DNA from: Desulfoscipio geothermicus DSM 3669
GTDB taxonomy: Bacteria; Bacillota; Desulfotomaculia; Desulfotomaculales; Desulfallaceae
Assembly: GCF_900115975.1 (NCBI RefSeq)
Contig: NZ_FOYM01000021.1
Coordinates: 1 to 63,353, forward strand
Reading direction: 5' to 3'
Length of the DNA stretch: 63,353 bases
Position numbers and translations under genes: made by a program. The notes under the pieces are model-generated. The model worked only from the letters and a program-made list of their open reading frames with translations. It was not told where the DNA came from and searched no databases. Shown here in pieces: positions 6,137 to 52,616 of this stretch. Position 1 is the stretch's first letter. Each line of letters opens with the position of its first letter.

Positions 6137-6148
6137 AGGAGGGATCAC

Positions 6149-37293: not shown

Positions 37294-37327
37294 ACAAAAA
37301 AATAGACCTGCTTAGTATGTGCAGGTC
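37294..37327 (-). terminator. Rho-independent terminator of the tusA-hdr-dsrE operon
   Basis: On the minus strand GACCTGC-N9-GCAGGTC is followed by TATTTTTTTG. It lies 80 bases after the dsrE stop and closes the leftward operon. Confidence 0.85.
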
Positions 37328-37407: not shown

Positions 37408-37884
37408 TTAGATAAACAGGTTTACGTTGGCTTCATCGGCTTCGCCCAGGTAGGTGGCCACCCCGGCAAATTCCAGGCCGTCGATCAGTTCTTCTTCCCG
37501 GATGCCCATGACATCCATAGACATGGTGCAGGCGATCATTTTAATGCCCTGCTCTTTGGCGGTCCGGATCAGTTCCGGCAGGGGAGTTACGTTTTGCTGT
37601 TTCATTACCATCTTCATCATTGTGGCGCCCATGCCGCCGAAGTTCATCTTGGATATGCCCAGTTTGTCGGCGCCCCGGGGCATCATTTTACCGAACATCC
37701 ACTGCAGGAAGCTCTTCTTGACCTTGATGTTCTCGGGTTTTCTGATGGCGTTGAGGCCCCAGAAGGTGAAGAACATGGTAACGTCGTCGCCCATGGCGGC
37801 GGCACCGTTGGCAATGATAAAGGCGGCCATCACCCTGTCGAGATCGCCGCTGAAGACAATTATGGTTTTTTTGGTCGTGTCCAT
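37408..37884 (-). CDS. DsrE/DsrF-like sulfur-carrier protein (DsrE3 type)
   Basis: A 158-residue protein of the DsrE/DrsE family: TIIVFSGDLDRVMAAFIIAN, VTMFFTFWGLNAIRKPE and the conserved-cysteine motif IKMIACTMSMDVMGI with Cys119. Family members accept persulfide sulfur from TusA-type carriers in the cytoplasm. It is the last gene of the leftward operon that begins with tusA, so donor and acceptor flank the Hdr genes. AAGGGGGT precedes the ATG. A 230-base gap with repeats separates it from hdrB. Confidence 0.87.
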   Translation of the reverse strand: MDTTKKTIIVFSGDLDRVMAAFIIANGAAAMGDDVTMFFTFWGLNAIRKPENIKVKKSFLQWMFGKMMPRGADKLGISKMNFGGMGATMMKMVMKQQNVTPLPELIRTAKEQGIKMIACTMSMDVMGIREEELIDGLEFAGVATYLGEADEANVNLFI

Positions 37885-38115: not shown

Positions 38116-39081
38116 CTACATACAATAAGCCTGTGTTAGCAAGTTGGAGATATCCTCCAGCTGCACCTCGCCCCGGGCCGCTTTTTGCAGGTTAACGTAA
38201 CAAATGGGACACATGGTAACCGCACCGGCGGCTGCACCGGCCTGTTTGATTTGCTCCACCCTCTGGCGCGCCCTTTCTTTGGCCTTTTTGGGGTACAGGG
38301 ATTCCGCCGGGCCGCCGCAGCACAGGGTAAATTTTCCTGAATCAGCCGGTTCCTTTATAGCCACCCCGGCGTTTTTCAGCAGAGTACGCTGCTCGTTCAA
38401 CACATTTTCGTACCGGGCGTACACGCAGGAATCGTGCATCACCACTTCCAGATCGAGCCGGCTTCGGGGCTCGATACCCCGCTCCACCAGCACTTCCAGG
38501 TAGCTTTGCACCTGCAGGTCATAGCCGTCAATCAGTTTTGGGTAAACCGACCTGAGCATGTTGGTGGTGTGGGGGTCGACGGTGATAACGTTTTGCACGC
38601 CGTACTTCTTAAAGACATCGTATACCTTGCGGGCGTGGGCTTTTAATACATCGTCCACACCCAGGTCATAAATCAACGCGCCGGAATAAAGCTCTTCCTC
38701 GTACAGATAGCCGAACTGCACCCCCGCCTGCTGCAAAAGCCGCGCAATATTTACAAGAATCCGGTTGTAGGATTCCTGCATACTTTTGGAGGGCAGGGCC
38801 ATAAAGCCGGATACATTGATGACCTTATTCACCTGCCGGCCCAGCTTAATAAAGTTGACCAGGAACGAATCCTCAATACCCTCCTGGGCTTTACCCATGG
38901 CCGCGATATAGGGAATGAGCTGGTACATCATCCCCGTGTATAAAACCGTTCTGGCTCCCTTGGGGATGTTCAGGCCCCTGGCCCACCTGGTGGCGCTCTT
39001 GGCGGAAATGGGCAGCACGGAATGCCTGATGCGCAAGTTATCCGCTAAAATTCCGATGGTATCGCCGGTTGGCAATGGCAT
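38116..39081 (-). CDS. HdrB/HdrD-like CCG-domain iron-sulfur protein
   Basis: A 321-residue protein. The C-terminal half has a complete CCG motif set: HDSCVYARYE, then TLCCGGPAESLY, then MCPICYVNL, which binds a non-cubane 4Fe-4S cluster in heterodisulfide reductases. The N-terminal copy is degenerate: the first Cys position reads YTGMMYQ and the CCG reads EEELYSGA. One active cluster is therefore predicted. In HdrB this site reduces a disulfide; here the substrate could be a low-molecular-weight or protein disulfide/persulfide (inference). AAGGAGAG precedes the ATG; hdrC lies 13 bases upstream. Confidence 0.82.
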   Translation of the reverse strand: MPLPTGDTIGILADNLRIRHSVLPISAKSATRWARGLNIPKGARTVLYTGMMYQLIPYIAAMGKAQEGIEDSFLVNFIKLGRQVNKVINVSGFMALPSKSMQESYNRILVNIARLLQQAGVQFGYLYEEELYSGALIYDLGVDDVLKAHARKVYDVFKKYGVQNVITVDPHTTNMLRSVYPKLIDGYDLQVQSYLEVLVERGIEPRSRLDLEVVMHDSCVYARYENVLNEQRTLLKNAGVAIKEPADSGKFTLCCGGPAESLYPKKAKERARQRVEQIKQAGAAAGAVTMCPICYVNLQKAARGEVQLEDISNLLTQAYCM

Positions 39082-39094: not shown

Positions 39095-39397
39095 TTAAAG
39101 TTTAAAAACTTTTTTATTAATGTAATATCGTAAAAACCTCACGTTTTCCGCTATATGCACCTGCGCCGGGCAGTTGGCCTCGCACATTTTACACAACAGG
39201 CAGGAGTAGATGGTCTCGGTGTTGGCCAAAACCTTGTCCTCCAGGCCCAGCAGTACATACCTGAACAGTTTGCGGGGGAGCAGCTCAAGGCCCATGGGAC
39301 ACACGGCGCTGCATACGCCGCAATTCATGCACGCGGAGGCGTTGAATTCTTCGGTACGCTTCACTTCATTGACAAAATCAGGGTTTACCAGTGCCAT
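39095..39397 (-). CDS. HdrC-like 4Fe-4S electron-transfer subunit
   Basis: A 100-residue ferredoxin-type protein with two clusters: CMNCGVCSAVCPMGLELLP and CLLCKMCEANCPAQVHIAE. This spacing and the following YYINKK helix are typical of HdrC, which passes electrons from HdrA to HdrB. It lies directly upstream of hdrB. Its ATG overlaps the stop of the small winged-helix gene (TAATG) with GAGGGG upstream. Confidence 0.88.
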   Translation of the reverse strand: MALVNPDFVNEVKRTEEFNASACMNCGVCSAVCPMGLELLPRKLFRYVLLGLEDKVLANTETIYSCLLCKMCEANCPAQVHIAENVRFLRYYINKKVFKL

Positions 39398-39639
39398 TAG
39401 TTCCCCTCCCCCGCTGCCGCCCGGTATTTATAGTAATCGCCGTCTTCTTCCGCCTCCGCAACCTGTCCGTACTTGCGCATGCCCATCACCCAGTACATCA
39501 CTTCGTACGGAGGGCAACCAAGGGCCTCGGCAATCTCAGGTATTGTTTTGGGGCCGTCCTGCAGGATTTGCAAGATTTTATCCCGCATCACCATTTCTTC
39601 CCTGATGACTTCCCTCGGATCTCTCACTTCGCCCTTCAT
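39397..39639 (-). CDS. Small winged-helix protein within the Hdr operon
   Basis: An 80-residue protein: EVIREEMVMRDKILQILQDG, KTIPEIAEALGCPPYEVMYW and VMGMRKYGQVAEAEEDGDYY form a winged helix-turn-helix without extra domain. It is translationally coupled to hdrC and sits two bases after hdrA. A DNA-binding regulator or a structural adaptor of the Hdr complex are both possible. I cannot decide. Confidence 0.75.
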   Translation of the reverse strand: MKGEVRDPREVIREEMVMRDKILQILQDGPKTIPEIAEALGCPPYEVMYWVMGMRKYGQVAEAEEDGDYYKYRAAAGEGN

Positions 39640-39641: not shown

Positions 39642-41372
39642 TTAGCCAATCTCCTTTAACATGGCATCAATCATGGATTCCATCTGCGCATCGGTATAGC
39701 CCTTGAGGTCGATGGCATTATCGGGACATAGCGGGGCGCAGCCACCGCAACCCTTGCAAACCGCCTCGTTAACCCGGGCCACTGTTTTACCCTGATAATG
39801 CTCCTGTTCAATGGCCGAATAAGGACAAGACTTGCTGCACACGTCGCAAAGCTTGCATTTTTTCGGGTCTATGACCGCTATCAGGGGTTCCAGTTCAACG
39901 AACCCTTTTTTGAGAATGGAAGCGCTCTGGGTCACCGCCGCCAGTGCGGAGGCCACGCTCTCGGCCGAGTTTTTGGGCCCCTGGCAGGCGCCGCAGATAA
40001 ACACCCCGTCCACCACCGTTTCCACCGGGCGCAACTTGGGGTGAATTTCATTGAAAAACCCGTCCCGGCCCACCGGTAACTTGAGTATATCCACCAGAGC
40101 ACTGTTTTCCCTGGGCATCATGCCGGTTACCAGTACCACTACATCCGCCGGTATTTCCACCTGTTCCCCGTAAGTCAGCAGGTCCTTGACCGTCACTTTC
40201 AACCTGCCGTCCGGACCCTTTTCCACCACCGGCGGCTCGTTGTCGTCAAACTTGAGAAATACGGAGCCCTTTTCCCTGGCCCGGCCGTACAGCAGCTCGA
40301 ACTTGCCGTAGGTGCGCATATCCCGGAAAAGGTGATACTGGTTAACTTGAGGATCTTTTTCCGCGGATTCAACAGCCGCGTGCACCCCGGCGTTGCAGCA
40401 GTAACGGGAGCAGTAGCGGTGTGGATTTTCCCCGGTTTGCTGCCTGCTGCCGACGCAGTAGATGTAAACCACGTTCTTTATCTCTTTACCATTAAACAAC
40501 ATTTTGTCGCCCGCGTTATCCAATATTTCCTTGTACTCCGGCAGGGTCACCACCCCGTCTATACCGTAGCCGTATTCTCCATCCCGGGGATGGTAACCGT
40601 CAAAGCCCGTGGCCACAATTATCGAACCCACATTGGTCGAGATTTCTTCAGTTTTTTGGCCGTTAACCCTGATTTTAACCTGGAAATTGCCAATGCTGCC
40701 GGATTTGGCCACCAGTTCGGCGTCGGTGAACAGGGTGATGTTTTCCCGGCGCTTAACTTTGTCAACCAGTTGTTTGATTAAAAGCCGGCCGGTTCTGTCG
40801 TGGGGATACATTTTGTTAAATCCCGCCACCCAGCCGCCGGGCGCAGCGGATTTTTCGGCCAGCAGCACGGATATGCCCAGGTCCGCAAGGCCGATGGCAG
40901 CCCGCAGGCCCGCAATACCCGCACCCACCACCAATACTTTGGGCACGGTATCAATTACGATCGGTTCCAGCGGCTCGGTCAGGGCGGTCCGGGCAACGCC
41001 GGCCCGGACCAAACGCACGGCCTTTTCCGTCGCCCCGGCCCGGTCATCGGTATGGGTCCAGGAACACTGTTCCCGCACATTCACCTGGGTGTACCGGTAA
41101 GGGTTCAACCCCGCCCGTTTGGCTACTTCCCGAAAGGTAAACAGGTGCAGTTTGGGCGAACAGGAGGCCACCACCAGGCCGTCCAGGTTTTGCTCCCGGA
41201 TATCCTCGATCATCTCCTGCTGCGTGGCGTCCGAGCAGGTAAACATGGCCGTTTTGGCCACCACCACGCCCGGCTCGACCTCCACGGCTTGCCGGACAGC
41301 TTCCACGTCCACGTAGTCGGAGATGTTCCCGCCGCAGTGACAAATGTATACGCCAATTCTCCGGTCACTCAT
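39642..41372 (-). CDS. HdrA-like flavoprotein
   Basis: A 576-residue FAD protein. The N-terminal YICHCGGNISDYVDV is followed by CSPKLHLFTFREVAKRAGLN as in HdrA. The Rossmann motif VLVVGAGIAGLRAAIGLADL is near residue 148, CSRYCCNAGVHAA near 325, and two C-terminal 4Fe-4S motifs (CKLCDVCSKSCPYS, CKGCGGCAPLCPDN). HdrA carries the flavin that can bifurcate electrons in methanogens. Whether this one bifurcates cannot be told. ATGA overlap couples it to the upstream HdrA/GltD fusion. Confidence 0.87.
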   Translation of the reverse strand: MSDRRIGVYICHCGGNISDYVDVEAVRQAVEVEPGVVVAKTAMFTCSDATQQEMIEDIREQNLDGLVVASCSPKLHLFTFREVAKRAGLNPYRYTQVNVREQCSWTHTDDRAGATEKAVRLVRAGVARTALTEPLEPIVIDTVPKVLVVGAGIAGLRAAIGLADLGISVLLAEKSAAPGGWVAGFNKMYPHDRTGRLLIKQLVDKVKRRENITLFTDAELVAKSGSIGNFQVKIRVNGQKTEEISTNVGSIIVATGFDGYHPRDGEYGYGIDGVVTLPEYKEILDNAGDKMLFNGKEIKNVVYIYCVGSRQQTGENPHRYCSRYCCNAGVHAAVESAEKDPQVNQYHLFRDMRTYGKFELLYGRAREKGSVFLKFDDNEPPVVEKGPDGRLKVTVKDLLTYGEQVEIPADVVVLVTGMMPRENSALVDILKLPVGRDGFFNEIHPKLRPVETVVDGVFICGACQGPKNSAESVASALAAVTQSASILKKGFVELEPLIAVIDPKKCKLCDVCSKSCPYSAIEQEHYQGKTVARVNEAVCKGCGGCAPLCPDNAIDLKGYTDAQMESMIDAMLKEIG

Positions 41373-44077
41373 TTGCTCATCCTTATCCTTTCCACGTAAG
41401 CTGCCGCCTGGGCCGCCGCTGAACCGGCGTGTAATATGGAGTCGGGTATATCCTTGGCGCCGGAGGCGGTCCCGGCCACAAAGACCCCGTCAATGCTGGT
41501 TTGCCCCGGGTTAATATCTTCGTCAACCTCTTTGACGTATGAGAAATCATCCGCGGCCAACTTTTCGCCGCTGAACAGCTTGAAAACTTCCGTATTGGGC
41601 AACAGCCCCGTCGCCAATACCACCAAATCGTGTTCGGCTTTTTGCAACTGACCGCCGTTGTCGATGTCTTCGTAATGGAGGATCAGGTTGCCGTCCGCCT
41701 TTTCATCTATTTTGGCCACCCGGCCCTTGACAAAGTTGGCCCCCATGGCGCCGGCCTGCCGGTAAAATTCTTCATAGCCCTTGCTGAAAGCTCTGATGTC
41801 GATATAATAAACCGTAACGTCCGCCAACGGCAGCGCCCCCATGATAAGCTGGTTGTGCTTCACCGAGTACATGCAGCACACCCGGGAACACAGCGGGTTA
41901 TCCACCGTACAATCCCTGGAGCCCGTACACAGCACAAAGGCAATGTTATCGGGGACCTTGCCGTCATAGGGTCGCAGCACCGTATTGTACGGCCTGGTGG
42001 GTGCCAGCAGTCTATCCATCTCCATGCCGGTGATCACGTTTTTAAACTTGCCGTAGCCGTAACGGGGCTTCAGATGGGCGTCAAACAGTTTAAAGCCCGT
42101 GGAAACAATTACGGAACTCACTTCCACTTCCCGGGTTTCTTCCCGCATACTCATGTCGATGGCATCGGCCGGACAGGCGGCGATGCACTGGTGACATTCC
42201 GAGCACACCCCGCAGTCCAGACACCGGCCGGCGCTGTACCGCGCTTCTTCTTCCGTGAGGGGCGGTTCAACTTCCGTAAAGTCGCTGACCCCCGGTTTTA
42301 AAATCTCCCGGCCTGGCACCGGTGCCAGGTTGCGGTAACTTTGCTGCCTGTTGATAACCGTTTGCTTATCCACCACCGGCAATTTTTCCTCAAAGGCGAC
42401 ACCGGCCAGGTCCTCTCCATTCAAGTAACGGTCAATGAAGAATGCGGCTCTTTTGCCCTGCCCCACAGCGTTGACGATCATCGAAGGGCCGCTAACCACA
42501 TCCCCGCCGGCAAAAATATACGGCACCGAGGTTTGCATAGTTTCGGGGTTGGCGGCAATTGTACCGTTTTGGTTCAGCTCCAGCGTACCGGCCAGGCAGC
42601 CGGTGTCCGGGGTCAACCCCACGGCGGTGATTACCACATCCGCGGGCATTCTGTAGGCCGATCCCTTGACCGGCACGGGTTTCCTGCGACCGCTGGAATC
42701 GGGCTTACCAAGCTCCATTTTCACACATTCGATTTCTGTCAACTTACCATTCTTACCGATAAACTTTTGGGGGGCACTGAGGTACCGGAACTCTACCCCT
42801 TCTTGCTCCGCCCCGGCTATTTCCCAGTCGTGAGCCGGCATTTCATCACGGCTTCTCCGGTACTGGACGATTACTTTTTGGGCGCCCAGCCTTACGGCCA
42901 CCCTGGCCGAGTCTATGGCCACGTTGCCCCCGCCGATTACCACCACTGTTTTATCCTTAAAGGAAATTTCTTTGTCCAGGTTGACGTCCCGCAGGAAATC
43001 AAGCGCACTGACCACGCCGGCCAGGTCTTCGCCCGCCACCCGCAGCCGGCGCGTTCCGGCGGTGCCGGTGGCCAGAAATACAGCGTCGAATCCCTTGTCC
43101 TTCAAAGCCGCCGGGTTTTCCACCCGAACACCGGTCTGGATTTCTACTCCCAGGTCCGTAACATTTCGGATGTCCCGGTCCACCACATCTTTGGGCAGCC
43201 GGTAGGACGGGATGGCCAACCGCAGCATGCCGCCGGGCCGGGCAGCGGCCTCGAAAATTTTCACCCGGTGACCTTTCCTGGCCAAATGCATGGCCGCGGT
43301 CAATCCCGCCGGACCCGAGCCCACAACGGCCACCTTTTTGCCGCTTGGCGCCGCAACGGGTTTACCGTCCGGTCCGGCATTTTCCCTGTAGCGGGTATCG
43401 GCCACAAAACGCTTCAGTTTTCTGATAGGCAGCGAGCCCTCAAGGTCGCCCCTGGTGCATTCCCCTTCACAGGGCGCGTAGCAAGCCCGGCCCAGGCTGC
43501 CGATTACCGGTGTGGTTTCCAGAATCAGATCAAAGGCTTCTTTATATTTCCCGCTCCGCACCAGGGCCACGTAACCGTGGGCCTTGATGCCCGCCGGGCA
43601 GGTGAATGAACAGGGCGAAGTGCCTGCCCGTTCAATAACCGCCTTTTTGGGCACGGCCTGGGGAAAGGCAATGAAAGCCGCCCGCCGGGCCACCATATCG
43701 GAATTGTACTGGTCGGGGACCGCCACGTTGCAGGTCATTTCACACTGCCGGCAGCCCGTGCAAAGGGTCTGATTTATAAAAGTAGGCTTTTTACGCACCT
43801 TGACGATAAATTGGCCGTCCTGGCCCCGCTTAATCTGCTCCACTTCTGAATATACCAATACATCGATATTAGGATGATGCGTAGTGGCGGCCATTTTGGG
43901 CGTGGAAATACAGCTGGCGCAATCCAGGGTGGGAAACACCTTGCTCAGCAGGATCATTTTGCCGCCCACGCTCGGTTCTTTCTCCACCACCAGCACCTTA
44001 TAACCCATATCACCGAGTTTCAGGGCGGATTCCATACCGCCGATACCACTACCGACAACCAGAACATCATAGTTCAT
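41369..44077 (-). CDS. HdrA-like protein with an inserted GltD-like NAD(P)H:acceptor oxidoreductase module
   Basis: A 902-residue multi-flavin protein. An HdrA-type FAD start (VLVVGSGIGGMESALKLGDM) leads to a 4Fe-4S site LCTGCRQCEMTCNV near 105. A glutamate-synthase-small-subunit-like block follows: SCSFTCPAGIKAHGYVALVR, RACYAPCEGECTRGD, FAD site VAVVGSGPAGLTAAMHLARK near 250 and NAD(P) site VVVIGGGNVAIDSARVAVR near 375. Then CLDCGVCSECHQCIAACPAD and the HdrA C-terminal part (VLCTGSRDC, VVLATGLLPNTEVF). Two FADs plus an NAD(P)H site and several clusters would let it feed NAD(P)H electrons into the Hdr chain. Coupled by ATGA to the next hdrA. Confidence 0.85.
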   Translation of the reverse strand: MNYDVLVVGSGIGGMESALKLGDMGYKVLVVEKEPSVGGKMILLSKVFPTLDCASCISTPKMAATTHHPNIDVLVYSEVEQIKRGQDGQFIVKVRKKPTFINQTLCTGCRQCEMTCNVAVPDQYNSDMVARRAAFIAFPQAVPKKAVIERAGTSPCSFTCPAGIKAHGYVALVRSGKYKEAFDLILETTPVIGSLGRACYAPCEGECTRGDLEGSLPIRKLKRFVADTRYRENAGPDGKPVAAPSGKKVAVVGSGPAGLTAAMHLARKGHRVKIFEAAARPGGMLRLAIPSYRLPKDVVDRDIRNVTDLGVEIQTGVRVENPAALKDKGFDAVFLATGTAGTRRLRVAGEDLAGVVSALDFLRDVNLDKEISFKDKTVVVIGGGNVAIDSARVAVRLGAQKVIVQYRRSRDEMPAHDWEIAGAEQEGVEFRYLSAPQKFIGKNGKLTEIECVKMELGKPDSSGRRKPVPVKGSAYRMPADVVITAVGLTPDTGCLAGTLELNQNGTIAANPETMQTSVPYIFAGGDVVSGPSMIVNAVGQGKRAAFFIDRYLNGEDLAGVAFEEKLPVVDKQTVINRQQSYRNLAPVPGREILKPGVSDFTEVEPPLTEEEARYSAGRCLDCGVCSECHQCIAACPADAIDMSMREETREVEVSSVIVSTGFKLFDAHLKPRYGYGKFKNVITGMEMDRLLAPTRPYNTVLRPYDGKVPDNIAFVLCTGSRDCTVDNPLCSRVCCMYSVKHNQLIMGALPLADVTVYYIDIRAFSKGYEEFYRQAGAMGANFVKGRVAKIDEKADGNLILHYEDIDNGGQLQKAEHDLVVLATGLLPNTEVFKLFSGEKLAADDFSYVKEVDEDINPGQTSIDGVFVAGTASGAKDIPDSILHAGSAAAQAAAYVERIRMSK

Positions 44078-44081: not shown

Positions 44082-44510
44082 TTATCCCTTCCTGGCAGGT
44101 CCTAATTTTTTCAATGTTTCATAGTAATCTTTTATTTGACTGGTGAAAGGCCCGGCACATACCGAACAAATGGCGGACATCTTCAGTCTTTCGGGCTCGT
44201 AGCCCTTTTGCTTTAGCAAATCCTGGGCTTCCTTCACAATCCGGGAAGCCCTTTCGGAACAGTCCGGCAGATAGGCGCACTCTTCACCGTCAGCGGCGAT
44301 AAACACTCCGTCGAACCCCTTTTCCACCGCGTGTAAAATCCACCCGGGCTTGATACCGCTAGTGCAGGGCATGCTGATCACCATTACACTGGGGGGGTAG
44401 TGCATGTGCGAGCTGCCCGCCAGGTCAATACCCGGGTCGGAAATGTTATTTGTGGAAAAGGCAAGGATTTTCGGGACAAAATCCTTGCCTTCTTTGGTTG
44501 TGCCGCCCAT
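44082..44510 (-). CDS. MvhD/HdrA-associated iron-sulfur subunit, cysteine-poor variant
   Basis: A 142-residue protein aligning with MvhD, the small 2Fe-2S protein that joins hydrogenase or dehydrogenase to Hdr: DLAGSSHMHYPPSVMVISMP, GWILHAVEKGFDGVFIAADG and ICSVCAGPFTSQI. The usual N-terminal CxWCxxxG motif is replaced (STNNISDPGID), and the GCHxGDC region reads ADGEECAY, so cluster ligation must differ or be lost. It lies between tusA (2 bases) and the large HdrA fusion (4 bases). Confidence 0.82.
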   Translation of the reverse strand: MGGTTKEGKDFVPKILAFSTNNISDPGIDLAGSSHMHYPPSVMVISMPCTSGIKPGWILHAVEKGFDGVFIAADGEECAYLPDCSERASRIVKEAQDLLKQKGYEPERLKMSAICSVCAGPFTSQIKDYYETLKKLGPARKG

Positions 44511-44512: not shown

Positions 44513-44761
44513 TTACTTCATCCTCTTGATGTATAGTTTAATGTCACCCGCGTCTTCCAGCATGCCCATGAACTCATGCCCGGTTTTTTTGCACCAGGCG
44601 GGCAGGTCTTTTTTGGTGCCGGCATCGGAGGCCAGCACTTCCATGACCTGTCCGGGCTCAATTTCCGCGATGGATTTCTTGGCCGCCAAAATCGGTCCAG
44701 GGCAGGACGTGCCCCTTGCGTCAACCACCTTGTCGGCTTTAATGTTTTGCAATTCTGACAT
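44513..44761 (-). CDS. tusA: TusA-family sulfur carrier
   Basis: An 82-residue TusA/SirA-fold protein with the sulfur-binding motif ARGTSCPGPILAAKKSI (Cys at about residue 20) and EVLASDAGTKKDLPAWC, a second Cys often found in the YedF-like branch. It should carry sulfane sulfur as a persulfide in the cytoplasm and pass it to DsrE or to the Hdr complex. First gene of the leftward operon; AAAGGAGG precedes the ATG. Palindromic operator at 44875-44890 lies about 115 bases upstream. Confidence 0.9.
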   Translation of the reverse strand: MSELQNIKADKVVDARGTSCPGPILAAKKSIAEIEPGQVMEVLASDAGTKKDLPAWCKKTGHEFMGMLEDAGDIKLYIKRMK

Positions 44762-44874
44762 GAGACGTACCTCCTTTAATTAATGAAAAATTTTATACCT
44801 CACCAGGGTACTTGCGCATAACACATAAAAAATATTCCATATCCTTAGCAAACCCAAATTTTAGACATATACCC

Positions 44875-44890
44875 ATACCCCTATGGGTAT
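44875..44890. promoter_or_regulatory. CsoR/CstR-type operator 1 (tusA side)
   Basis: ATACCC-CTAT-GGGTAT is a 6-base perfect inverted repeat with a 4-base centre, the form recognised by CsoR/CstR repressors. It sits about 16 bases after a possible leftward promoter (TTGACA at 44934-44929, weak -10 TAATTT). A further ATACCC half-site flanks it on the left. Confidence 0.78.
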
Positions 44891-44956
44891 ATGATTGTTA
44901 ATAACAAATTACTATACTCGCACTGCTTTGTCAATCCCTAATTTTAAAAGTTTAAG

Positions 44957-44985
44957 TTGAACTTTATTAATGGATCAGCTATAAT
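44957..44985 (+). promoter_or_regulatory. Sigma-A type promoter of the CsoR-family gene
   Basis: TTGAAC (44957-44962), 17-base spacer, TATAAT (44980-44985). The predicted start point falls within operator 2, which begins six bases after the -10 box. Confidence 0.8.
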
Positions 44986-44991
44986 TCAAAT

Positions 44992-45007
44992 ATACCCTAC
45001 GGGGTAT
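44992..45007. promoter_or_regulatory. CsoR/CstR-type operator 2 (autoregulatory)
   Basis: ATACCC-TACG-GGGTAT has the same arms and spacing as operator 1. It overlaps the +1 region of the repressor's promoter, an arrangement suited to negative autoregulation. Confidence 0.8.
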
Positions 45008-45045
45008 AGGATAAAACAGCTACTCCTAAAAGAGAGGTTTTTTAA

Positions 45046-45399
45046 ATGGCAACTTTATCTAATGACGGATCTGATCGACACGGCGCAATCAACGAAGACA
45101 ACCGTGAGGCGAGGCAACATATACCCCTGGAAAGGGACCCGGCCACCATGAAGGAAATGATGAGCAGGTTGAAAAAAATTGAGGGGCAGGTGCGCGGGGT
45201 GCAGAAAATGGTCCAGGACTGCCGCGATTGCGGGGACATCGTCATCCAGTTGGCCGCCATCAAGGCGGCGGTCAACCGGGTAGGCATTACCATGCTGGCC
45301 TGCCACCTGGCCGACCAAATTAAAAACGACCAGCGTGAGGGCCGGAATATTAAAGAATCACTGCAAGAGTTTATCGCCATATTTAAGAAATTTTCCTAA
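45046..45399 (+). CDS. CsoR/CstR/FrmR-family (DUF156) repressor
   Basis: A 117-residue all-helical repressor with the family core RLKKIEGQVRGVQKMVQDCR, DCGDIVIQLAAIKAAVNRVG and ITMLACHLADQI, after a polar 35-residue extension. Key positions: Cys62 and His87 fit the first Cys and the His of the copper site, but the third ligand Cys is Gln91. An extra Cys86 precedes the His and Cys59 precedes Cys62. It therefore cannot form the classical Cys-His-Cys copper site. A thiol/persulfide or aldehyde sensor is likely, fitting control of the divergent tusA-hdr-dsrE operon. Confidence 0.87.
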   Translation: MATLSNDGSDRHGAINEDNREARQHIPLERDPATMKEMMSRLKKIEGQVRGVQKMVQDCRDCGDIVIQLAAIKAAVNRVGITMLACHLADQIKNDQREGRNIKESLQEFIAIFKKFS

Positions 45400-45503: not shown

Positions 45504-46412
45504 TTAAATCTTCAGTGCTTCGGCTTTGGTCAACTTACCGGAAGCTGTAGCAATAATTTCACTGATTATCAGCAGGCGATACTCTTTGGTATCATATCGT
45601 TTATAATCCAAGTTGCTTAAATTCAATTCGATACTGTCTTCCATTAATTCGTAATAGTTTTTATCGGCAGTGATATTAACTACGGGAACAAGGGCATTGT
45701 TGGCGGAATATGAACTGCCTGTCGCAACTAAAACCACCTGTACGCCCTTTAAAATCATGCTTTTCATTATTTCATTGGGTTCCGGCGAAAATTCCAGCTC
45801 ATATAAACCACGGTCTCTTCCTACCGGATCGTCAATACCCAGTTTTTTAACTGCGTGAAGGTTATTCACTTTGTCTTTTTTGTTCAATACTTCCCTGGCT
45901 ATAACAATGCGCCCGTTGCTATTTTCAATAATATCCTGTATACAAGGCAATAGTAAATCAGCTGTTTTAGAATCTTCCTTATATATAATACCCAAAGTCA
46001 GCCTGGAAAAAAGCGATAACTGGCGCCTGTATGTGCTGATCTCCCTGGCTATGGCCATGGCGGCCCGGGTAGACCTGGCAACGGCTTGAACCGGCCCACC
46101 GGCGGCGCTTATGTCCACCACTTCCACGGGCTTGCCAATTAACGACATTTCTCCGGCAACTTTTTCACCTACGCCCTGTGGTTTGGGCTCCAGCAGTACC
46201 GCTCCCGCAGCATTTGGATTATTTATCATAGCAGAAAGATAATCGCCAAACAATTGATGCTTTGCTGGCCCGCAGACAACCGGAACGGCGTTATAAACGG
46301 CACCGGCAACCTTTAAACAGAGCCTATCCGTTGTTGGATCGGTGGATATCACCAGCAAATGACTACGGCATCCGACACTTCCATCCGGTCTAATGAACCC
46401 TAAAAACTCCAT
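45504..46412 (-). CDS. Short UxaA-family (altronate/galactarate dehydratase-like) protein
   Basis: About 302 residues. FLGFIRPDGSVGCRSHLLVI at the start and VATGSSYSANNALVPVVNIT with ELMEDSIELNLSNL near the end match the core domain of UxaA/GarD/SuyB hydro- or sulfo-lyases. However, SuyB-type proteins are about 390 residues and typical metal-binding stretches are not obvious. It may be an altered-function relative. It is the last gene of the fum-sdh-regulator unit; a substrate such as a 2-hydroxy or sulfonated acid is only a guess. The ATG at 46412 is preferred to the GTG at 46421. Confidence 0.6.
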   Translation of the reverse strand: MEFLGFIRPDGSVGCRSHLLVISTDPTTDRLCLKVAGAVYNAVPVVCGPAKHQLFGDYLSAMINNPNAAGAVLLEPKPQGVGEKVAGEMSLIGKPVEVVDISAAGGPVQAVARSTRAAMAIAREISTYRRQLSLFSRLTLGIIYKEDSKTADLLLPCIQDIIENSNGRIVIAREVLNKKDKVNNLHAVKKLGIDDPVGRDRGLYELEFSPEPNEIMKSMILKGVQVVLVATGSSYSANNALVPVVNITADKNYYELMEDSIELNLSNLDYKRYDTKEYRLLIISEIIATASGKLTKAEALKI

Positions 46413-46472
46413 AAGTATCACGCCTTAAACTAATTTTGCTCACGCCTTAGTTGGCATTTAGTTTGCCTTATA

Positions 46473-47180
46473 TTATTTTTCTATAGTTTTTTCTACGCTT
46501 TCAATATGTTCATACATAGCCTGCATGGCTTTTGGGGCATCGCGTTCTGCTATGGCCTTGGCAATGGCTTCATGGTCATTGATGGATTGGGCCGCACGTC
46601 CCGGCACAATTGCTGTCTTAGTACGGACCTTGTCCAGCACATCAAATAAACCCGACATTATTTTTACCAAAACTACGTTGTGTGATGCCTTGATTATCGC
46701 CCCGTGGAATCTTTCGTCGTATTCCCTTGCCAATGCAAGGTCAAGTTTTCTTTTTTTGGAAGACTTGACTTCGGATATAATTGTTTCCAATTCCTCTATT
46801 TCATCTTCACTGGCCCTCAGAGCTGCCCAGGCCGCAGCCTGGGTTTCAAGAACTTTTCTTATTTCAAATAGTTGTTTCATCTCTTCCTTGCTTAAAATTA
46901 GTGCATCTGCTACATTACTGATAACTGAATCAAGATTGGCTTCCTTCATAAACACACCATAACCTTTTTTTATCTCAACCAAGCCCATGGCGGACAGCGT
47001 CCTAATCGCTTCGCGCACTGACGTGCGGCTTACATTGAACATATTTGCCAGTTCACGCTCTGGAGGTAGTTTATCTCCTGCTTTTAATTTACCGTCAGCT
47101 AAAAGCTCTCGGATTTGCAATACAATCCTTTGGGACCTGCTAGTTTTTTCAGTCACAACTGGTTGGAAATGATTCTGCAT
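46473..47180 (-). CDS. GntR-family regulator, FadR/FCD subfamily
   Basis: About 235 residues. The N-terminal winged helix (GDKLPPERELANMFNVSRTS then VREAIRTLSAMGLVEIKKGY) is followed by an all-helical FCD ligand domain (FEIRKVLETQAAAWAALRAS, EYDERFHGAIIKASHNVVLV, INDHEAIAKAIAERDAPKAM) with the metal-binding Asp/His pattern. Members respond to organic acids such as lactate, pyruvate or malonate. Located after sdhA on the same strand, so it is probably expressed with, and regulates, the fumarase/SDH genes. AGGTGGG favours the start at 47180 over 47216. Confidence 0.85.
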   Translation of the reverse strand: MQNHFQPVVTEKTSRSQRIVLQIRELLADGKLKAGDKLPPERELANMFNVSRTSVREAIRTLSAMGLVEIKKGYGVFMKEANLDSVISNVADALILSKEEMKQLFEIRKVLETQAAAWAALRASEDEIEELETIISEVKSSKKRKLDLALAREYDERFHGAIIKASHNVVLVKIMSGLFDVLDKVRTKTAIVPGRAAQSINDHEAIAKAIAERDAPKAMQAMYEHIESVEKTIEK

Positions 47181-47275
47181 TTGCCCACCTGCAATCTTTG
47201 AAATATAGATATTCAAATTAATTTATAAATGCGACGTACTTCCATGGAAACAGGAAGCACGCCACATATTTAAAT

Positions 47276-49009
47276 TCAATATTTTATATTGGCCTTTCTT
47301 ATTTCTTCGGCGGAAAATCTTGAAGCGACTATGGGTTTGGTAAAACTCTCTATCTCTAAATTTCCCTTGTTTTTCAGGAAAATGTTGACCAGCCAGTTTT
47401 GGTTATCTGTGTCCACATAGTCAGTCCTATAATGGGATCCACGGCTTTCTGTTCTAAGCAAAGCTCCATTGGCCACAAGCCGTCCAACTGTTATCCAGTT
47501 GGTAACGTTGATAATATCGTTCCATTCCATATTATACCTGCTTAAAGTTCTATTTGCAACATATGCTTGCCCCGCCATTTCCAGCAGCTCATCCAACCTG
47601 GCCACCGCTTCCTGCAGCTTTTTGCCGTCACGCACCACGCCGACTTTTTCCCACATCAAAAGCTTGATTTCATCCCTGATGGGATAAATATCGACCCCGT
47701 CGGTGCGTTTATAGAACTTAAGCCAGCGCCTCTTAATTTCCTCAACCTGTTCCTGCCTGTACGGCCTTAAAACCTCCTGTTCGGCAAGGGCCGCCGCGGT
47801 GTCGCCGGCCCTGCGGCCAAACACGGTAGACTCGCAAATGCCGTTGCCGCCAAGACGGTTTGCGCCGTGTACCCCGCCCGAATCTTCACCTGCAACTAGT
47901 AATCCCTTTAAACTTGATTGACAATGAATATCTATTTTTACCCCGCCCATTTGGAAGTGCGCGGTTGGGCTGACCTCCACGGGCTCCCGGGCAAGGTCTT
48001 TACCAATATCTTTCACGCGTTCACACATGCCGGGGAACTTTTTCTCCACAAATTCGGCGCCCAGGTGGGTCATGTCAATCATTACACCCTCGTTCTCAGT
48101 GCCCCTGCCGGCCATGATTTCCATGTAACCAGCCCTGGCAACGCGGTCACGGGTTGAGCGTTCCATCCGCTCCGGGTCATAGCGTTCCATGTACCTCTCA
48201 CCCAGGCCGTTTATCATATAACCGCCCGCGCCCCGCAATCCTTCTTCCAGCACGCTTCCGCTCAGCCTTGACTGCCCGGCTAGCAACCCGGTCGGGTGGA
48301 ACTGCAACATTTCCATATCCACAAATTCTGCCCCGGCCCGAAAGCACATGGCCATACCGTCCCCGGTCTTGTCAAAGGAGGGGGCAGATATCTTATACAT
48401 GGAGGCTGCCCCGCCCGTAGCCACAACTACAACCTTGGCATTGACGACAAATATTTCACCTGTCCGAATATTGGCCATTACAGCGCCAACCACGCGGTCG
48501 CCCTCTTCAGTGGTAAGCAGATCCAGAGCCCGGGTTTCTTCAAGAACTTTGATCTTTTCTTCCCTGCGGAAAATCTGGTCGGTCAGTCGGGCTATAATTT
48601 GAATGCCACTGAGGTCAGCGACGTGTACGGTCCTGTCAAAGGATTGTCCCGCAAAAGCCTTCTGGTGGATTTTGCCGTCTTCCGCCCGGTCAAAAAAGCA
48701 ACCCACCTTAACTTCCAGCTCATGCACCGTTTTAGGGGCGTCGTTTACCAGCGTCCAAGCCAGGTCCTGGTTATTTACAAAACCGCCGCCCTTGATAGTA
48801 TCCATAAAGTGTTTGTCAACAGAGTCCGCCGGGTTAAGAACCACGTTCAACCCGCCCTGCACCATGCGGCTGCAGCCACATTTGCCGATCAATCCCTTTG
48901 TCGCCAGTACTACATTTAAGCTAGGGTTATTATCATAAACGTGCAACGCTGCAAATAAGCCTGCTCCACCACTACCCAGGATTAACACGTCAGTTTTAAT
49001 CTCATTCAC
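47276..49009 (-). CDS. sdhA: Succinate dehydrogenase/fumarate reductase flavoprotein subunit
   Basis: About 577 residues. FAD motif DVLILGSGGAGLFAALHVYD is at the start. The active-site residues of the family are visible: FHPTGL, LEEGLRGAGGYMIN, TAHFQMGGV and HGANRLGGNGI. The histidine that binds FAD covalently in most SdhA proteins (SHT...QGG) is replaced: the segment reads GCSRMVQGG, with Cys at the aligned position. It oxidises succinate to fumarate at the membrane face, last gene of sdhCDBA. The GTG start at 49009 has AAGGAG upstream. Confidence 0.87.
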   Translation of the reverse strand: MNEIKTDVLILGSGGAGLFAALHVYDNNPSLNVVLATKGLIGKCGCSRMVQGGLNVVLNPADSVDKHFMDTIKGGGFVNNQDLAWTLVNDAPKTVHELEVKVGCFFDRAEDGKIHQKAFAGQSFDRTVHVADLSGIQIIARLTDQIFRREEKIKVLEETRALDLLTTEEGDRVVGAVMANIRTGEIFVVNAKVVVVATGGAASMYKISAPSFDKTGDGMAMCFRAGAEFVDMEMLQFHPTGLLAGQSRLSGSVLEEGLRGAGGYMINGLGERYMERYDPERMERSTRDRVARAGYMEIMAGRGTENEGVMIDMTHLGAEFVEKKFPGMCERVKDIGKDLAREPVEVSPTAHFQMGGVKIDIHCQSSLKGLLVAGEDSGGVHGANRLGGNGICESTVFGRRAGDTAAALAEQEVLRPYRQEQVEEIKRRWLKFYKRTDGVDIYPIRDEIKLLMWEKVGVVRDGKKLQEAVARLDELLEMAGQAYVANRTLSRYNMEWNDIINVTNWITVGRLVANGALLRTESRGSHYRTDYVDTDNQNWLVNIFLKNKGNLEIESFTKPIVASRFSAEEIRKANIKY

Positions 49010-49056
49010 AAAAAGCCACACTCCTTAAGCGTCTTATTTCAAGACGTCTTTTGTGA

Positions 49057-49782
49057 TCATTTGAATATGCCGAACTTTTGCAGAACACAACGTTTCTTCA
49101 ACTGCTGAATTGATTTGGTGGGAACCAGCTTTTTGGGACATACTTCCGCACAGTTGAATTGGTCGTGGCATCTCCACACCCCGTAAGAACGCCCGACGAC
49201 ATTGATCCTTTCAATCCTGATGGCGTCACGCTTATCCGCAATTAGTGTATAAGCACGATTCAAAGCCGCCGGTCCGATATAATCTTCATTTGTGGCGACC
49301 ATGGAACAGGCGCCATAGCAGCACCCACAGGTTATACAATCCAGCATTTGATCAATGAATTCCCTCTCGCCTGAATCCGGCCTGATTACCGCCGGCTCGG
49401 TCAACTCGCTTTTGCCTACATAATAAGGTTTAATCTTTTTCCATTTCTCAAAAAACGGCTCCATATCCGTCGCCAGGTCCCTAATGATTGGTAAATTGGG
49501 GAGCGGCATGATAGTAATGTTGTTGGTTCCGAGGCTCTTAACCTGGGTGCGGCATGCCAGTCTCGGTTTGCCGTTGATGTACATGGCACATGAACCGCAC
49601 ATCCCGATGCGGCAGGAACAACGAAATGCCAAGGTTTTGTCGATATAGTTTTGTACGTGCATTACAACGTCCAGAACCGCCATATTATCAATCAAAGGCA
49701 CTTTAAATTCATCAAACCTGGGCTCAGCATCAACCTCTGGATCATAGCGGAATATCTTAGCATTAATTTCTCGCGAGGACAA
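49057..49782 (-). CDS. sdhB: Succinate dehydrogenase/fumarate reductase iron-sulfur subunit
   Basis: A 241-residue protein with three cluster sites in canonical order: 2Fe-2S (CSCRIGMCGSCAMYING), then CITCGCCYGACS and CHDQFNCAEVCPKKL for the 4Fe-4S and 3Fe-4S clusters. It relays electrons from the flavoprotein to the membrane anchors. TTG start with GGAGGCGG upstream. Lies between sdhD and sdhA. Confidence 0.92.
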   Translation of the reverse strand: MSSREINAKIFRYDPEVDAEPRFDEFKVPLIDNMAVLDVVMHVQNYIDKTLAFRCSCRIGMCGSCAMYINGKPRLACRTQVKSLGTNNITIMPLPNLPIIRDLATDMEPFFEKWKKIKPYYVGKSELTEPAVIRPDSGEREFIDQMLDCITCGCCYGACSMVATNEDYIGPAALNRAYTLIADKRDAIRIERINVVGRSYGVWRCHDQFNCAEVCPKKLVPTKSIQQLKKRCVLQKFGIFK

Positions 49783-49799
49783 TGTATCCGCCTCCTAAA

Positions 49800-50126
49800 T
49801 CACATAATGAATTGCACAACTGAATATAAACCAACGCCGAAAAGAGTTACTCCCAAGATAACCAGGATACTTATCGTAACAAGTCTCGCCCTCAGCCCCG
49901 TGTCAACCATAACCGTATACAATCCGTTTAGAGCATGAAACAAGCCGAACAATAATAACAATACATAAATAGTCACGTACGAACCGGTGACCAGCCTGGC
50001 CTTGGCCTCGGAAAATTGTATGATTTCAGCCGGGTTTGCAACATATAGAAGCCATAAATGCAGGCCGAGAACAACCAGCAACAAAGCGGCGCTAATTCTT
50101 TGCAATAACCACGTTATAGCGTTCAC
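49800..50126 (-). CDS. sdhD: Succinate dehydrogenase membrane anchor subunit (SdhD-like)
   Basis: About 108 residues with three hydrophobic helices: WLLQRISAALLLVVLGLHLW, YVTIYVLLLLFGLFHALNGL and LVTISILVILGVTLFGVGLY. Histidines in the first two helices (GLHLW, FHALNG) are candidates for heme or quinone binding. It should pair with the SdhC product to hold SdhAB at the membrane and pass electrons to the quinone pool. GTG starts at 50132 or 50126. Confidence 0.82.
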   Translation of the reverse strand: MNAITWLLQRISAALLLVVLGLHLWLLYVANPAEIIQFSEAKARLVTGSYVTIYVLLLLFGLFHALNGLYTVMVDTGLRARLVTISILVILGVTLFGVGLYSVVQFIM

Positions 50127-50153
50127 GAGCACACCTTCCCCCGTCGGTATTGT

Positions 50154-50543
50154 TTAGGAGAGTTTGATCATTATGACATATATCCACATTGCGGCGCCAA
50201 CAGCCATGGCCGACCAAAAAATCTCCTTTTGCCTGGAAAAACCTATTCCAATATCAAACAGCAACAGTCGGATTCCGTTTAAACCATGATAGATTACCGC
50301 TCCCACCAGAAGCAGTTCCATATAGTGCAGCACCGGATTGGTCATCAGTATAGTCAGCATGGCGTTAAAGGCTTCACTGCCTCTGATCAACGATGAAGCC
50401 ATGAGCGTGGTGTGAAGTAATATATATAACACAAGACCGATACCGGTTATGCGGTGTAGGATCCAAGCCCACATACCCACCGCACCCCAAACCTGGCTGT
50501 GTGTCGCATATCTCTGCGATGCTGCCATCTCCCGGTTGGGCAT
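50154..50543 (-). CDS. sdhC: Succinate dehydrogenase cytochrome b subunit (SdhC-like)
   Basis: A 129-residue membrane protein with three helices. It carries the family motif AWILHRITGIGLVLYILLHT near residue 27 (heme-ligand His) and AVIYHGLNGIRLLLFDIG near 85. AAGGAGG just upstream favours ATG at 50543. First gene of sdhCDBA, following fumarase beta after a hairpin. Confidence 0.87.
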   Translation of the reverse strand: MPNREMAASQRYATHSQVWGAVGMWAWILHRITGIGLVLYILLHTTLMASSLIRGSEAFNAMLTILMTNPVLHYMELLLVGAVIYHGLNGIRLLLFDIGIGFSRQKEIFWSAMAVGAAMWIYVIMIKLS

Positions 50544-50576
50544 AAGTATTTCCTCCTTAATAGTATTATATTTATA

Positions 50577-50609
50577 CAAGTCCGTGGACGCTTTAAATCC
50601 ACGGACTTG
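50577..50609. promoter_or_regulatory. Intercistronic hairpin between fumarase beta and sdhC
   Basis: CAAGTCCGTGGA / TCCACGGACTTG is a perfect 12-base stem with a 9-base loop. On the transcribed (minus) strand no T-run follows, so it probably stabilises or partially attenuates the mRNA rather than terminating it. Confidence 0.6.
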
Positions 50610-50616
50610 CTGTTAT

Positions 50617-51210
50617 TTATTCAGCTCCAATTTTTTTATAGATGTCGTCCAACTTGGCAGCTGCCTTGGCTTTAACGTCAAAGTATAAATTGTTGCCGTA
50701 GGAATCCATAGCCACGATCAGGGGACCGAAATTCTTGGTCCGGAATTTCCAAATGGCCTCGGGCATTAAGTCTTCCCACCAAACATCTTCAATCTCCAGA
50801 ATTCTTTCCGTTTCCCACGCCGCGGCTCCGCCCACGATGGCGAGGTAACAACCGCCGTGCTTCTTCATGGCTTCCATGCTAGCTTCCATCATACCCGCCT
50901 TGCCGATGATGGCGCGCACTCCGTATTGTTCCATTAAGCCCGGCGTGAACCTGTCCATACGGCTGCTGGTGGTTGTCCCGATACACACGGGCTCATATTT
51001 ACCTTCCCCAACTTTACGCACGTTCGGTGCGGTATGTATACAGGCCGCACCGGTTAGGTCGGTGGGGGCCGGTACTTTACCGTCAAACATGCGAATTAAA
51101 TTGGCATCCCTGATACCAAAAATAATGCCCTCCAGGGTAACTTTATCACCGACTTTAAGTTTTCTAACGTCTTCTTCAGATAATGGAGTTTTTAAAGTAT
51201 ACTCAGCCAT
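50617..51210 (-). CDS. Fumarate hydratase class I, beta (C-terminal) subunit
   Basis: A 197-residue Fe-S hydro-lyase beta domain: LKVGDKVTLEGIIFGIRDAN, the conserved IGTTTSSRMDRFTPGLMEQY and AIIGKAGMMEASMEAMKKHG then YLAIVGGAAAWETERI. With the alpha subunit it hydrates fumarate to malate in the cytoplasm. GGGGGT before the ATG; 15 bases after the alpha gene. Confidence 0.92.
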   Translation of the reverse strand: MAEYTLKTPLSEEDVRKLKVGDKVTLEGIIFGIRDANLIRMFDGKVPAPTDLTGAACIHTAPNVRKVGEGKYEPVCIGTTTSSRMDRFTPGLMEQYGVRAIIGKAGMMEASMEAMKKHGGCYLAIVGGAAAWETERILEIEDVWWEDLMPEAIWKFRTKNFGPLIVAMDSYGNNLYFDVKAKAAAKLDDIYKKIGAE

Positions 51211-51225
51211 TATTATACCCCCTTT

Positions 51226-52128
51226 CTAATAACCTACTTCGTACTTGCCGTCGGCGCTGAGGATAGCCCTTGCACGACGTGCCGGCCAACACTGTATATT
51301 GATTGCCACGGGGTTTTGGGTAATGTGAGTGTATGCATGCTCAACATTAACAGCAATCGCAGTGTTCAAACCACCCAAACCCATGGGGCCAATGCCCAGT
51401 TCATTGATCGCTTCAAACATTTCCTTTTCAAACGCCGCCATTTCCGGATCCGGATTGTGCGAGCCGATGGGACGGGTTACCGCGGCCATTTTGGCCAGTT
51501 TCACGCACATATCCGCGGTTCCCCCGATGCCGATGCCGACAACATAAGGAGGACACGGGTTCGCGCCAACGTTTTTGGCAATTGTTTCAAGGATGAATCT
51601 TTTTACGCCGCGCACCCCTTCAGCCGGAATTAACATTTTCAGGAAACTCATGTTTTCAGAACCGGATCCCTTGGGAACCATCAATATTTCCACTTTATCG
51701 TTGTCCTGCACCACATCGTAGTGTATCGATGGTATGCGGTATCCTGAGCTGTTTTGGTTGTTTTGACGTTTAAACGGCGAAACAACGCTGGAGCGCAGCG
51801 GGTGTTCCACGGTGGCCCTTTGGCAGCCCTTGATTATGGCTTCCTCAAGCTGTACGAAATCAACGCTGAGCTTGTTTCCCACCTTAACAAAATAAATGGG
51901 AATGCCTGTGTCCTGGCAGATCAAGCGATTGTTTTCATCGGCAATTTTTATGTTCTCCAGCATGGTAGCCAGAACTTGTTTGCCGGTTTCAGTCTCTTCC
52001 TTTTCATAAGCTGCTTGCAGTGTCGTCCTGACATCGGGCGGCAAATCCTTCAATGCTTTAATGTAGAGCTCCTTGCACAGCTCTTCAACAGTTTTGTAAA
52101 ATGAATCAGCAACAGATTGTTTTGACAC
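51226..52128 (-). CDS. Fumarate hydratase class I, alpha (N-terminal) subunit
   Basis: A 300-residue alpha subunit of the oxygen-sensitive 4Fe-4S fumarase. Cluster cysteines lie in ENNRLICQDTGIPIYFVKVG, NVGANPCPPYVVGIGIGG and further conserved blocks GLGGLNTAIAVNVEHAYTH. GTG start with AAGGAGG. First gene of the operon fum(alpha)-fum(beta)-sdhCDBA-regulator-UxaA-like. A separate-subunit fumarase next to SDH is a layout I associate with propionate/succinate-oxidising Peptococcaceae (inference). Confidence 0.92.
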   Translation of the reverse strand: MSKQSVADSFYKTVEELCKELYIKALKDLPPDVRTTLQAAYEKEETETGKQVLATMLENIKIADENNRLICQDTGIPIYFVKVGNKLSVDFVQLEEAIIKGCQRATVEHPLRSSVVSPFKRQNNQNSSGYRIPSIHYDVVQDNDKVEILMVPKGSGSENMSFLKMLIPAEGVRGVKRFILETIAKNVGANPCPPYVVGIGIGGTADMCVKLAKMAAVTRPIGSHNPDPEMAAFEKEMFEAINELGIGPMGLGGLNTAIAVNVEHAYTHITQNPVAINIQCWPARRARAILSADGKYEVGY

Positions 52129-52285
52129 TTTTTTCCCTCCTTATATATATGTTGCTAGACTAAAGTTTTTTAATAAAAACCGATTCCCCCCTTATTCTTT
52201 AATTATTTACCTATAAAATTTGTTCGTTATTTAGTTGAAGAGAACGTTTTCCGGTGAACTTAAAGATCGTATCTTATAGATGTTC

Positions 52286-52296
52286 TGGTATAACCT
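52286..52296. promoter_or_regulatory. Candidate FCD-regulator operator
   Basis: TGGTATAACCT matches 10 of 11 positions of the FadR-type half-palindrome TNGTNNNACNA. It lies about 25 bases downstream of the -10 box of the fumarase promoter, where a repressor would block transcription. Weak because the motif is short. Confidence 0.3.
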
Positions 52297-52317
52297 CTTG
52301 CCTCTGACATCATACTC

Positions 52318-52347
52318 ATTATAGCACCAATTTTTTTATTGATGCAA
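52318..52347 (-). promoter_or_regulatory. Sigma-A promoter of the fumarase/SDH operon
   Basis: On the minus strand TTGCAT (52347-52342), 18-base spacer, TATAAT (52323-52318). The leader of about 180 bases down to the GTG at 52128 is AT-rich and ends in AAGGAGGG. I see no riboswitch in it. Confidence 0.7.
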
Positions 52348-52528
52348 TAGCGATTTTACAACTATTGTTTAATAACTACATGTGCCTATTACTACCGAAT
52401 ACATATCGATATCAATTAACTAATCAAAAATTACGTTGGGTTTACAATTGGTTATTGACATTTTTATAATGCTATTGCATTAATCGTCACACCTCTGATA
52501 TTTCTCCTTCCTTTACCCAAAAACCTCA

Positions 52529-52583: not shown

Positions 52584-52616
52584 GTTCAAGGTATAGCATT
52601 TAATCCGCGCGGTTAA

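Follow-up and report, generated by a model that had tools for sequence, protein, structure and literature searches.

We find that the Gram-positive sulfate reducer Desulfoscipio geothermicus DSM 3669 (genome 3.65 Mb) carries an operon of sulfur-carrier and Hdr genes, and the putative operator sites and divergent repressor gene beside it support the view that a dedicated switch serves this operon. We propose, at what we judge to be an even chance, that the switch responds to sulfane sulfur and controls an NAD(P)H-linked, Hdr-like complex that acts, probably reductively, on persulfide bound to TusA and DsrE2. We found no published description of the operon in the open-access literature. How sulfur disproportionation proceeds in some Bacillota without the YTD and MOLY clusters is an open question (PMC12998232), and the operon is a conserved, regulated candidate for sulfane sulfur handling in Gram-positive sulfate reducers.

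Gene content of the operon and its surroundings

The window, which is the whole 63,353-nucleotide stretch of DNA that we analysed, contains an operon of eight genes on the minus strand in the order tusA-flpD-hdrA/gltD-hdrA-HTH-hdrC-hdrB-dsrE2 (Table 1). A DUF156 repressor gene on the plus strand diverges from it, with operators in the intergenic region between the two (44762-45045). Pfam and NCBIfam searches confirmed the identities of the repressor gene and of the operon genes other than the winged-helix-like ORF, and with them the arrangement recognized in an earlier note on this DNA, in which tusA came first, Hdr genes lay in the middle and the repressor was divergent. The gene that the note placed last as dsrE does encode a DsrE-family carrier, although this is more precisely DsrE2. 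Missing from that account were a third operator and the 80-aa winged-helix-like ORF, which keeps its place in most of the complete operon copies. The likely operon terminator has a loop size beyond the limits of the terminator scan.

The region 3' of the repressor gene (45504-58016) carries genes for a UxaA-like protein, a FadR-type regulator, fumarate reductase/succinate dehydrogenase, fumarase, a LarA-like protein, malate/lactate dehydrogenases and a TRAP transporter. Mostly named from translations, this block is apparently a C4-dicarboxylate set with no evident tie to the operon.

Table 1. Features of the operon, the divergent repressor gene and the region between them.
Feature	Position	Strand	Description
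likely operon terminator	37297..37327	-	stem-loop GACCTGC/GCAGGTC, loop 9, then T run; read from the sequence
dsrE2	37408..37884	-	sulfur carrier, 158 aa, single Cys119; PF13686 225 bits; 3pnx E 4.6e-33
hdrB-like	38116..39081	-	321 aa; two CCG-type domains; PF02754 at residues 213-299 only
hdrC	39095..39397	-	2x[4Fe-4S], 100 aa; two CxxCxxCxxxC sets
winged-helix-like ORF	39397..39639	-	80 aa; weak HTH_20 match, E 2.6e-4, below cut-off
second hdrA	39642..41372	-	576 aa; N-terminal HdrA domain, C-terminal 2x[4Fe-4S] ferredoxin domain
hdrA/gltD	41369..44077	-	902 aa; HdrA core split by inserted NfnB/GltD-type NAD(P)H-FAD module
flpD/mvhD	44082..44510	-	[2Fe-2S] electron-transfer subunit, 142 aa; PF02662 111.6 bits
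tusA	44513..44761	-	sulfur carrier, 82 aa, CPGP active-site motif (Cys20); PF01206 80.5 bits
operator 3, GTACCCTGGTGAGGTAT	44795..44811	-	putative; one mismatch, 7-base spacer; ~35 bp upstream of tusA start codon
operator 1, ATACCCCTATGGGTAT	44875..44890		putative; exact palindrome upstream of tusA; kept in relatives at about -150 from tusA
candidate tusA promoter	44929..44934	-	perfect -35-like TTGACA, read from the sequence; not called by promoter scan
predicted repressor promoter	44957..44985	+	sigma-70-type TTGAAC-N17-TATAAT; 10 of 12 consensus matches; consensus only
operator 2, ATACCCTACGGGGTAT	44992..45007		putative; exact palindrome over predicted +1 of repressor promoter; position kept in relatives
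DUF156 (CsoR/RcnR superfamily) repressor	45046..45399	+	117 aa; PF02583 81.9 bits (cut-off 22.8)

Subunits and electron input of the predicted Hdr complex

The NAD(P)H-type module and MvhD that the earlier note had seen in the operon are borne out as an NfnB/GltD insert and FlpD/MvhD. As in HdrA and HdrL, the first HdrA protein (HdrA-GltD) combines an FAD core and the cluster motif C-x12-C-x3-CC with an inserted NAD(P)H module, here at about residues 150-620 and 40-42% identical to subunits of NfnABC/StnABC over about 460 residues; considered together, the two HdrA proteins of the operon carry C-x12/14-C-x3-CC. AlphaFold models of HdrA-GltD and HdrB served for fold matches only. The HdrA-GltD model (pLDDT 73) matched Nfn-ABC 9bov_A over residues 150-623 (Z 42.6, rmsd 1.9, 466 aligned) and HdrA 5odc_A over residues 2-902 (Z 29.9, rmsd 5.5, 378 aligned). 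Given the degree of identity to NfnABC/StnABC subunits, the inserted NfnB/GltD module is the likely point at which NAD(P)H enters.

The HdrB protein retains cysteines only in its C-terminal CCG domain (C219, C254, C255, C291 and C294, in 11/11 alignment rows). Its model (pLDDT 79) matched HdrB 5odc_B over residues 44-321 (Z 20.5, rmsd 2.4, 224 aligned) and EtfD 9ojn (Z 25.0, rmsd 2.4, 260 aligned). We rejected its identification as a canonical two-cluster HdrB, as it lacks the two cysteine-rich CCG sites even though its fold matches HdrB. A natural Hdr complex with a built-in NAD(P)H module and one HdrB site would be useful for defining the role of the second CCG cluster.

The same genome encodes a fused HdrA-GltD-HdrA protein (HdrL) of 1473 aa (C36:80000-98000), a paralogue of the 902- and 576-aa pair in the operon, and its gene adjoins flpD-like and metVF-like genes, which shows this type of HdrA to be a module joined to different partners. 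The HdrL/MetVF-MvhD-HdrA systems, such as HdrL of Desulfobacterium autotrophicum, likewise share with the operon an HdrA with a GltD/NfnB insert, a second HdrA core and FlpD. In contrast to HdrL, the operon divides these parts between two genes and has TusA, DsrE2, HdrC and a one-site HdrB in place of MetVF or formate dehydrogenase.

Predicted operators and their association with the repressor

Both palindromes that had been noted at 44875 and 44992 (operators 1 and 2) are there exactly, and they are the sole exact matches to the palindrome in the genome. The TTGAAC-N17-TATAAT promoter match linked earlier to operator 2, and the overlap of this operator with its +1, also stand, but the promoter would drive the repressor gene and not tusA. 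As it points to the repressor gene, we assign operator 2 as a putative autoregulatory site on the repressor's own start. A good -10 element looked for near the TTGACA of tusA, by promoter scan and by reading, was not found.

To describe the sites, we used an operator model of ATACC-N6/7-GGTAT with at most one mismatch, and first-order Markov shuffles as the null. Across 15 csoR-tusA intergenic regions we observed 28 exact and 35 total sites, compared with shuffle means of 0.06 and 1.0, respectively. These sites cluster at three positions that recur between regions, one close to the start of the repressor gene and the others at about -150 and about -60 from tusA, and a counterpart of operator 3 is present at -49 to -76 from tusA in 11 of the other 14 regions. 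The repressor and its predicted three-operator layout are recurrent in Desulfotomaculia.

A search with a five-row repressor alignment placed the repressor subfamily in 36 of 113 genomes of this class, with an E-value gap (about 1e-35 to 1e-20) parting it from ordinary CsoR proteins. Twenty-four genomes of the class carry the operon; when a site with at most one mismatch upstream of tusA is counted as an operator, all those with the repressor have one (19/19), compared with 1/5 of those that lack it. Fisher tests gave p 5e-4 for the association of repressor with operator and p 8e-8 for the co-occurrence of repressor with operon, neither value being corrected for kinship. In five of these 19 (G029, G060, G062, G063 and G065) the repressor gene lies elsewhere in the genome and tusA still carries an operator, and in G026/BRH_c4a operators are present and the repressor was not detected.

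Cysteine fingerprint of the repressor

The repressor has the PF02583 fold and an X cysteine (Cys62) that is invariant in the alignment, as in the DUF156/CsoR-RcnR family. Its fingerprint is completed by Y=His87 and Z=Gln91, with extra cysteines at positions 59 and 86. Among its homologues the X cysteine and Y histidine are conserved, the Z cysteine is absent in 35/35 (Z being Q, K, S, E, H and others) and a cysteine directly precedes the Y position in 33/35. In a repressor tree the subfamily stands apart from Cu-CsoR, CstR and InrS references with 89/97 support, although inner branches are weak and the bootstrap was not settled; the row from a Micromonosporaceae MAG (L024) formed a very long branch and was left unused.

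In the W-X-Y-Z scheme, the residues that matter are the cysteines at X and Z in CstR, and Pro2 together with X in FrmR (PMC5146963). The repressor had been taken for a CstR-type or persulfide-type protein, and as a sequence class this has to be given up, because the Z cysteine used by CstR is missing and Z is never Cys in the 35 homologues. We also rejected copper CsoR, which has C-H-C at X-Y-Z in our fingerprint table (Gln91 occupies Z here, and no copper gene adjoins the operon), and FrmR, as the repressor has no Pro2 and starts with Met-Ala, in a variable N-terminal extension of 30 aa. A DUF156 subfamily whose cysteine has moved would probe whether persulfide sensing needs an X-Z pair.

Two of the closest known systems are under DUF156 control. 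The CstR-controlled cst operon resembles this locus in its DUF156 repressor, its palindromic operators and its divergent targets, which include TusA and persulfide chemistry linked to NAD(P)H, but here Z is not a cysteine, a cysteine adjoins the Y histidine, and the predicted reductase is an Hdr complex, not CoADR. TTHA1953, a Thermus CsoR-family regulator of sox genes, is also a DUF156 repressor of a sulfur operon, and it differs from the D. geothermicus repressor in the canonical 29-residue spacing of its cysteines (C39/C68) and in its TACNNTACNNNNGTANNGTA site (PMC10318464).

Genomic context of the inducing signal

One alternative is a repressor that responds to a metal (Cu, Ni, Co or Zn) or to formaldehyde, with an operon that repairs damage instead of serving energy-related sulfur transfer. 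The conserved X cysteine and Y histidine are metal ligands in this family, and the operator resembles the palindrome at the genome's own copper CsoR gene, so the signal cannot be read from the operator alone. However, the Z cysteine ligand is absent in 35/35 homologues, Pro2 is lacking, and neither a metal transporter nor a formaldehyde gene occurs in any operon copy examined. The other CsoR of the genome (C82:34000-44000), which has the canonical C-H-C and a similar palindrome just before the CsoR core, lies directly upstream of a CopA-like P-type copper ATPase gene, and the presence of this separate protein disfavors copper as the signal. We give sensing of a metal or formaldehyde only a slim chance.

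With the Z cysteine missing, the case for persulfide sensing comes from genomic context and not from the family fingerprint. In genome G056 the same repressor subfamily, with two operators, diverges from the gene for an 848-aa CoADR-rhodanese-TusA-DsrE2 fusion (C1:3217000-3233000; 5445-7991), and in Enterococcus faecalis CstR is known to target CoA persulfide reductase (PMC9405070). A Lentisphaerae MAG has a CoADR-rhodanese gene directly upstream of the operon. Where the operon occurs without the repressor, ArsR-type genes (assigned by Pfam only) are found directly upstream in Desulfotomaculum copahuensis/G067, Pontiellaceae and RB_MAG, and in Anaerolineaceae upstream of a dsrEFH-tusA-dsrE2-hdr cluster; the ArsR-type regulators sHdrR and SoxR are sulfane-sulfur sensors (PMC12423496). 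Elsewhere in the subfamily, the repressor faces a Tat-signal 4Fe-4S ferredoxin and cytochrome b561 pair with operators between (L102, L103 and L105) or a NapH-like Fe-S membrane protein, and several loci face genes with no obvious sulfur role. From the targets in relatives, the ArsR genes and the analogy to CstR targets, sulfane sulfur is the most likely signal. The earlier suggestion of a sulfane-sulfur-induced pathway is thus strengthened by the fusion target and the upstream ArsR genes, although not by a CstR-type fingerprint.

Conservation of the operon in other genomes

We used the HdrA-GltD protein as query against 84,980 species genomes. The full block tusA-flpD-hdrA/gltD-hdrA-HTH-hdrC-hdrB-dsrE2 was found in the cultured Desulfotruncus alcoholivorax and D. 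arcticus, and in Desulfotomaculum copahuensis, Peptococcaceae MAGs, a Symbiobacterium MAG and a Deltaproteobacteria MAG. Desulfallas sp. Bu1-1 has a contig-edge copy that begins inside flpD, an Aminicenantes MAG has a truncated copy, and the copies in Pontiella/Pontiellaceae and Lentisphaerae MAGs are rearranged or cut by contig ends, with dsrE2 lying upstream of tusA in some of them. As judged from these gene orders, the operon is recurrent in several phyla, and the earlier note's hypothesis, which a lack of conserved order in relatives would have counted against, came through this comparison intact. We did not count second-tier HdrB matches in the phylum (E about 1e-60), which are a different protein, mostly beside a ~400-aa LutB-like gene and with no tusA; second-tier HdrA-GltD matches (about 890 bits, most frames close to 1480 aa) resemble the fused HdrL paralogue, and the one examined, from D. 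geothermicus itself, lies with metVF-like genes. In an Anaerolineaceae MAG (L018, 4902-6655), an ArsR gene is followed by DsrE-DsrF-DsrH-like, TusA, DsrE2 and Hdr genes, including one for an HdrA-GltD protein.

The complex might instead be an electron-bifurcating DsrC-trisulfide reductase of sulfate reduction, for which TusA and DsrE2 would be side carriers; its repressor would then sense the general thiol redox state. The genome does have two DsrC genes, but the conserved neighbors of the operon are TusA and DsrE2, not DsrC, and DsrC was not found in 6/14 operon carriers. Within the limits set by gaps in incomplete MAGs, this argues against accessory status of the operon within the Dsr pathway as such, and we consider a role in DsrC-trisulfide reduction improbable.

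Proposed function and comparison with known sulfur systems

From gene content, conservation, operators, fingerprint and repressor-operator covariation, all of which are read from the sequences, we infer an inducer, an electron path, a direction and possible bifurcation. At rest, the DUF156 repressor would occupy three operators, two upstream of tusA and one at the promoter of its own gene. When sulfane sulfur accumulates in the cytoplasm, it would modify the repressor at the conserved X cysteine, probably with involvement of the cysteine that adjoins the Y histidine, and release it from DNA. TusA and DsrE2 would then bring persulfide sulfur to the HdrABC-FlpD complex. Electrons from NAD(P)H could enter at the NfnB/GltD module of the first HdrA, pass through the two HdrA flavin/cluster cores to HdrC, and reach HdrB, whose one intact CCG cluster would be the site at which the carrier persulfide is reduced to H2S. 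With two HdrA cores and FlpD, the complex might also bifurcate or confurcate electrons with ferredoxin.

Given TusA and DsrE2 as carriers, reduction of a carrier persulfide by NAD(P)H at one cluster would be the simplest chemistry for such a complex. The NAD(P)H module, the energetics and the analogy to CoADR all point to the reductive direction. With NAD(P)H as the donor, such a reduction is energetically downhill. Sulfite/sulfate excepted, the couples of reduced sulfur have been noted to lie above NAD+/NADH (PMC6067878).

In the opposite direction, the operon could be a lipoate-free cousin of sHdr that oxidizes carrier sulfane sulfur towards sulfite and passes electrons to NAD(P)+ and ferredoxin, for example as the oxidizing arm of sulfur or thiosulfate disproportionation in Bacillota. 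TusA/DsrE carriers together with Hdr genes are a hallmark of sHdr oxidizers, and the disproportionation mechanism of Bacillota, where the YTD cluster is incomplete, is unknown (PMC12998232). Against oxidation, the operon has neither LbpA nor a lipoate ligase, the genome gives only partial GCV_H matches and no full-length GcvH/LbpA, the single HdrB has one CCG site, and NAD(P)+ is poorly reduced by sulfane sulfur (PMC6067878). We therefore regard an oxidative role as unlikely.

The comparison with sHdr (hdrC1B1A-hyp-hdrC2B2-lbpA with tusA/dsrE, in Hyphomicrobium, Metallosphaera and Sulfobacillus) also bears on our preferred, reductive reading. The two systems share TusA/DsrE-family sulfur carriers beside HdrA, HdrB and HdrC, and some sHdr members are under sulfane-sulfur-type repressor control, as we propose here. 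Unlike sHdr, however, the operon has one HdrB and one HdrC instead of two of each, two HdrA proteins, an NfnB-like NAD(P)H module, FlpD and a DUF156 repressor. We thus rejected identity with sHdr, in line with the earlier view that the gene set differs and that no lipoate-binding protein is encoded in it. By analogy, the operon resembles a merger of sHdr-style carriers and HdrL-style electron input under a CstR-like switch.

We also put forward, more tentatively than the functional proposal itself, that the operon could encode a previously undescribed Hdr complex, flavin-based and linked to NAD(P)H/ferredoxin, which would reduce (or, in reverse, oxidize) sulfur on TusA and DsrE2 and be governed by a new type of DUF156 persulfide sensor in which the second cysteine has moved from Z to just before the Y histidine. 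If true, it would be a sulfur-respiration or disproportionation module common to Gram-positive sulfate reducers and unrelated anaerobes without DsrC.

The YTD cluster (yedE-tusA-dsrE plus conserved hypothetical genes, now dsrEFH type II) resembles the operon in pairing TusA with a DsrE-family carrier in sulfate reducers. Identity with YTD was rejected, as the operon has neither yedE nor dsrEFH and its Hdr genes are additional. Elsewhere in the D. geothermicus genome, a YedE-like transporter gene adjoins a second tusA (C60:18000-28000; 5134-6415), a possible route of sulfur import.
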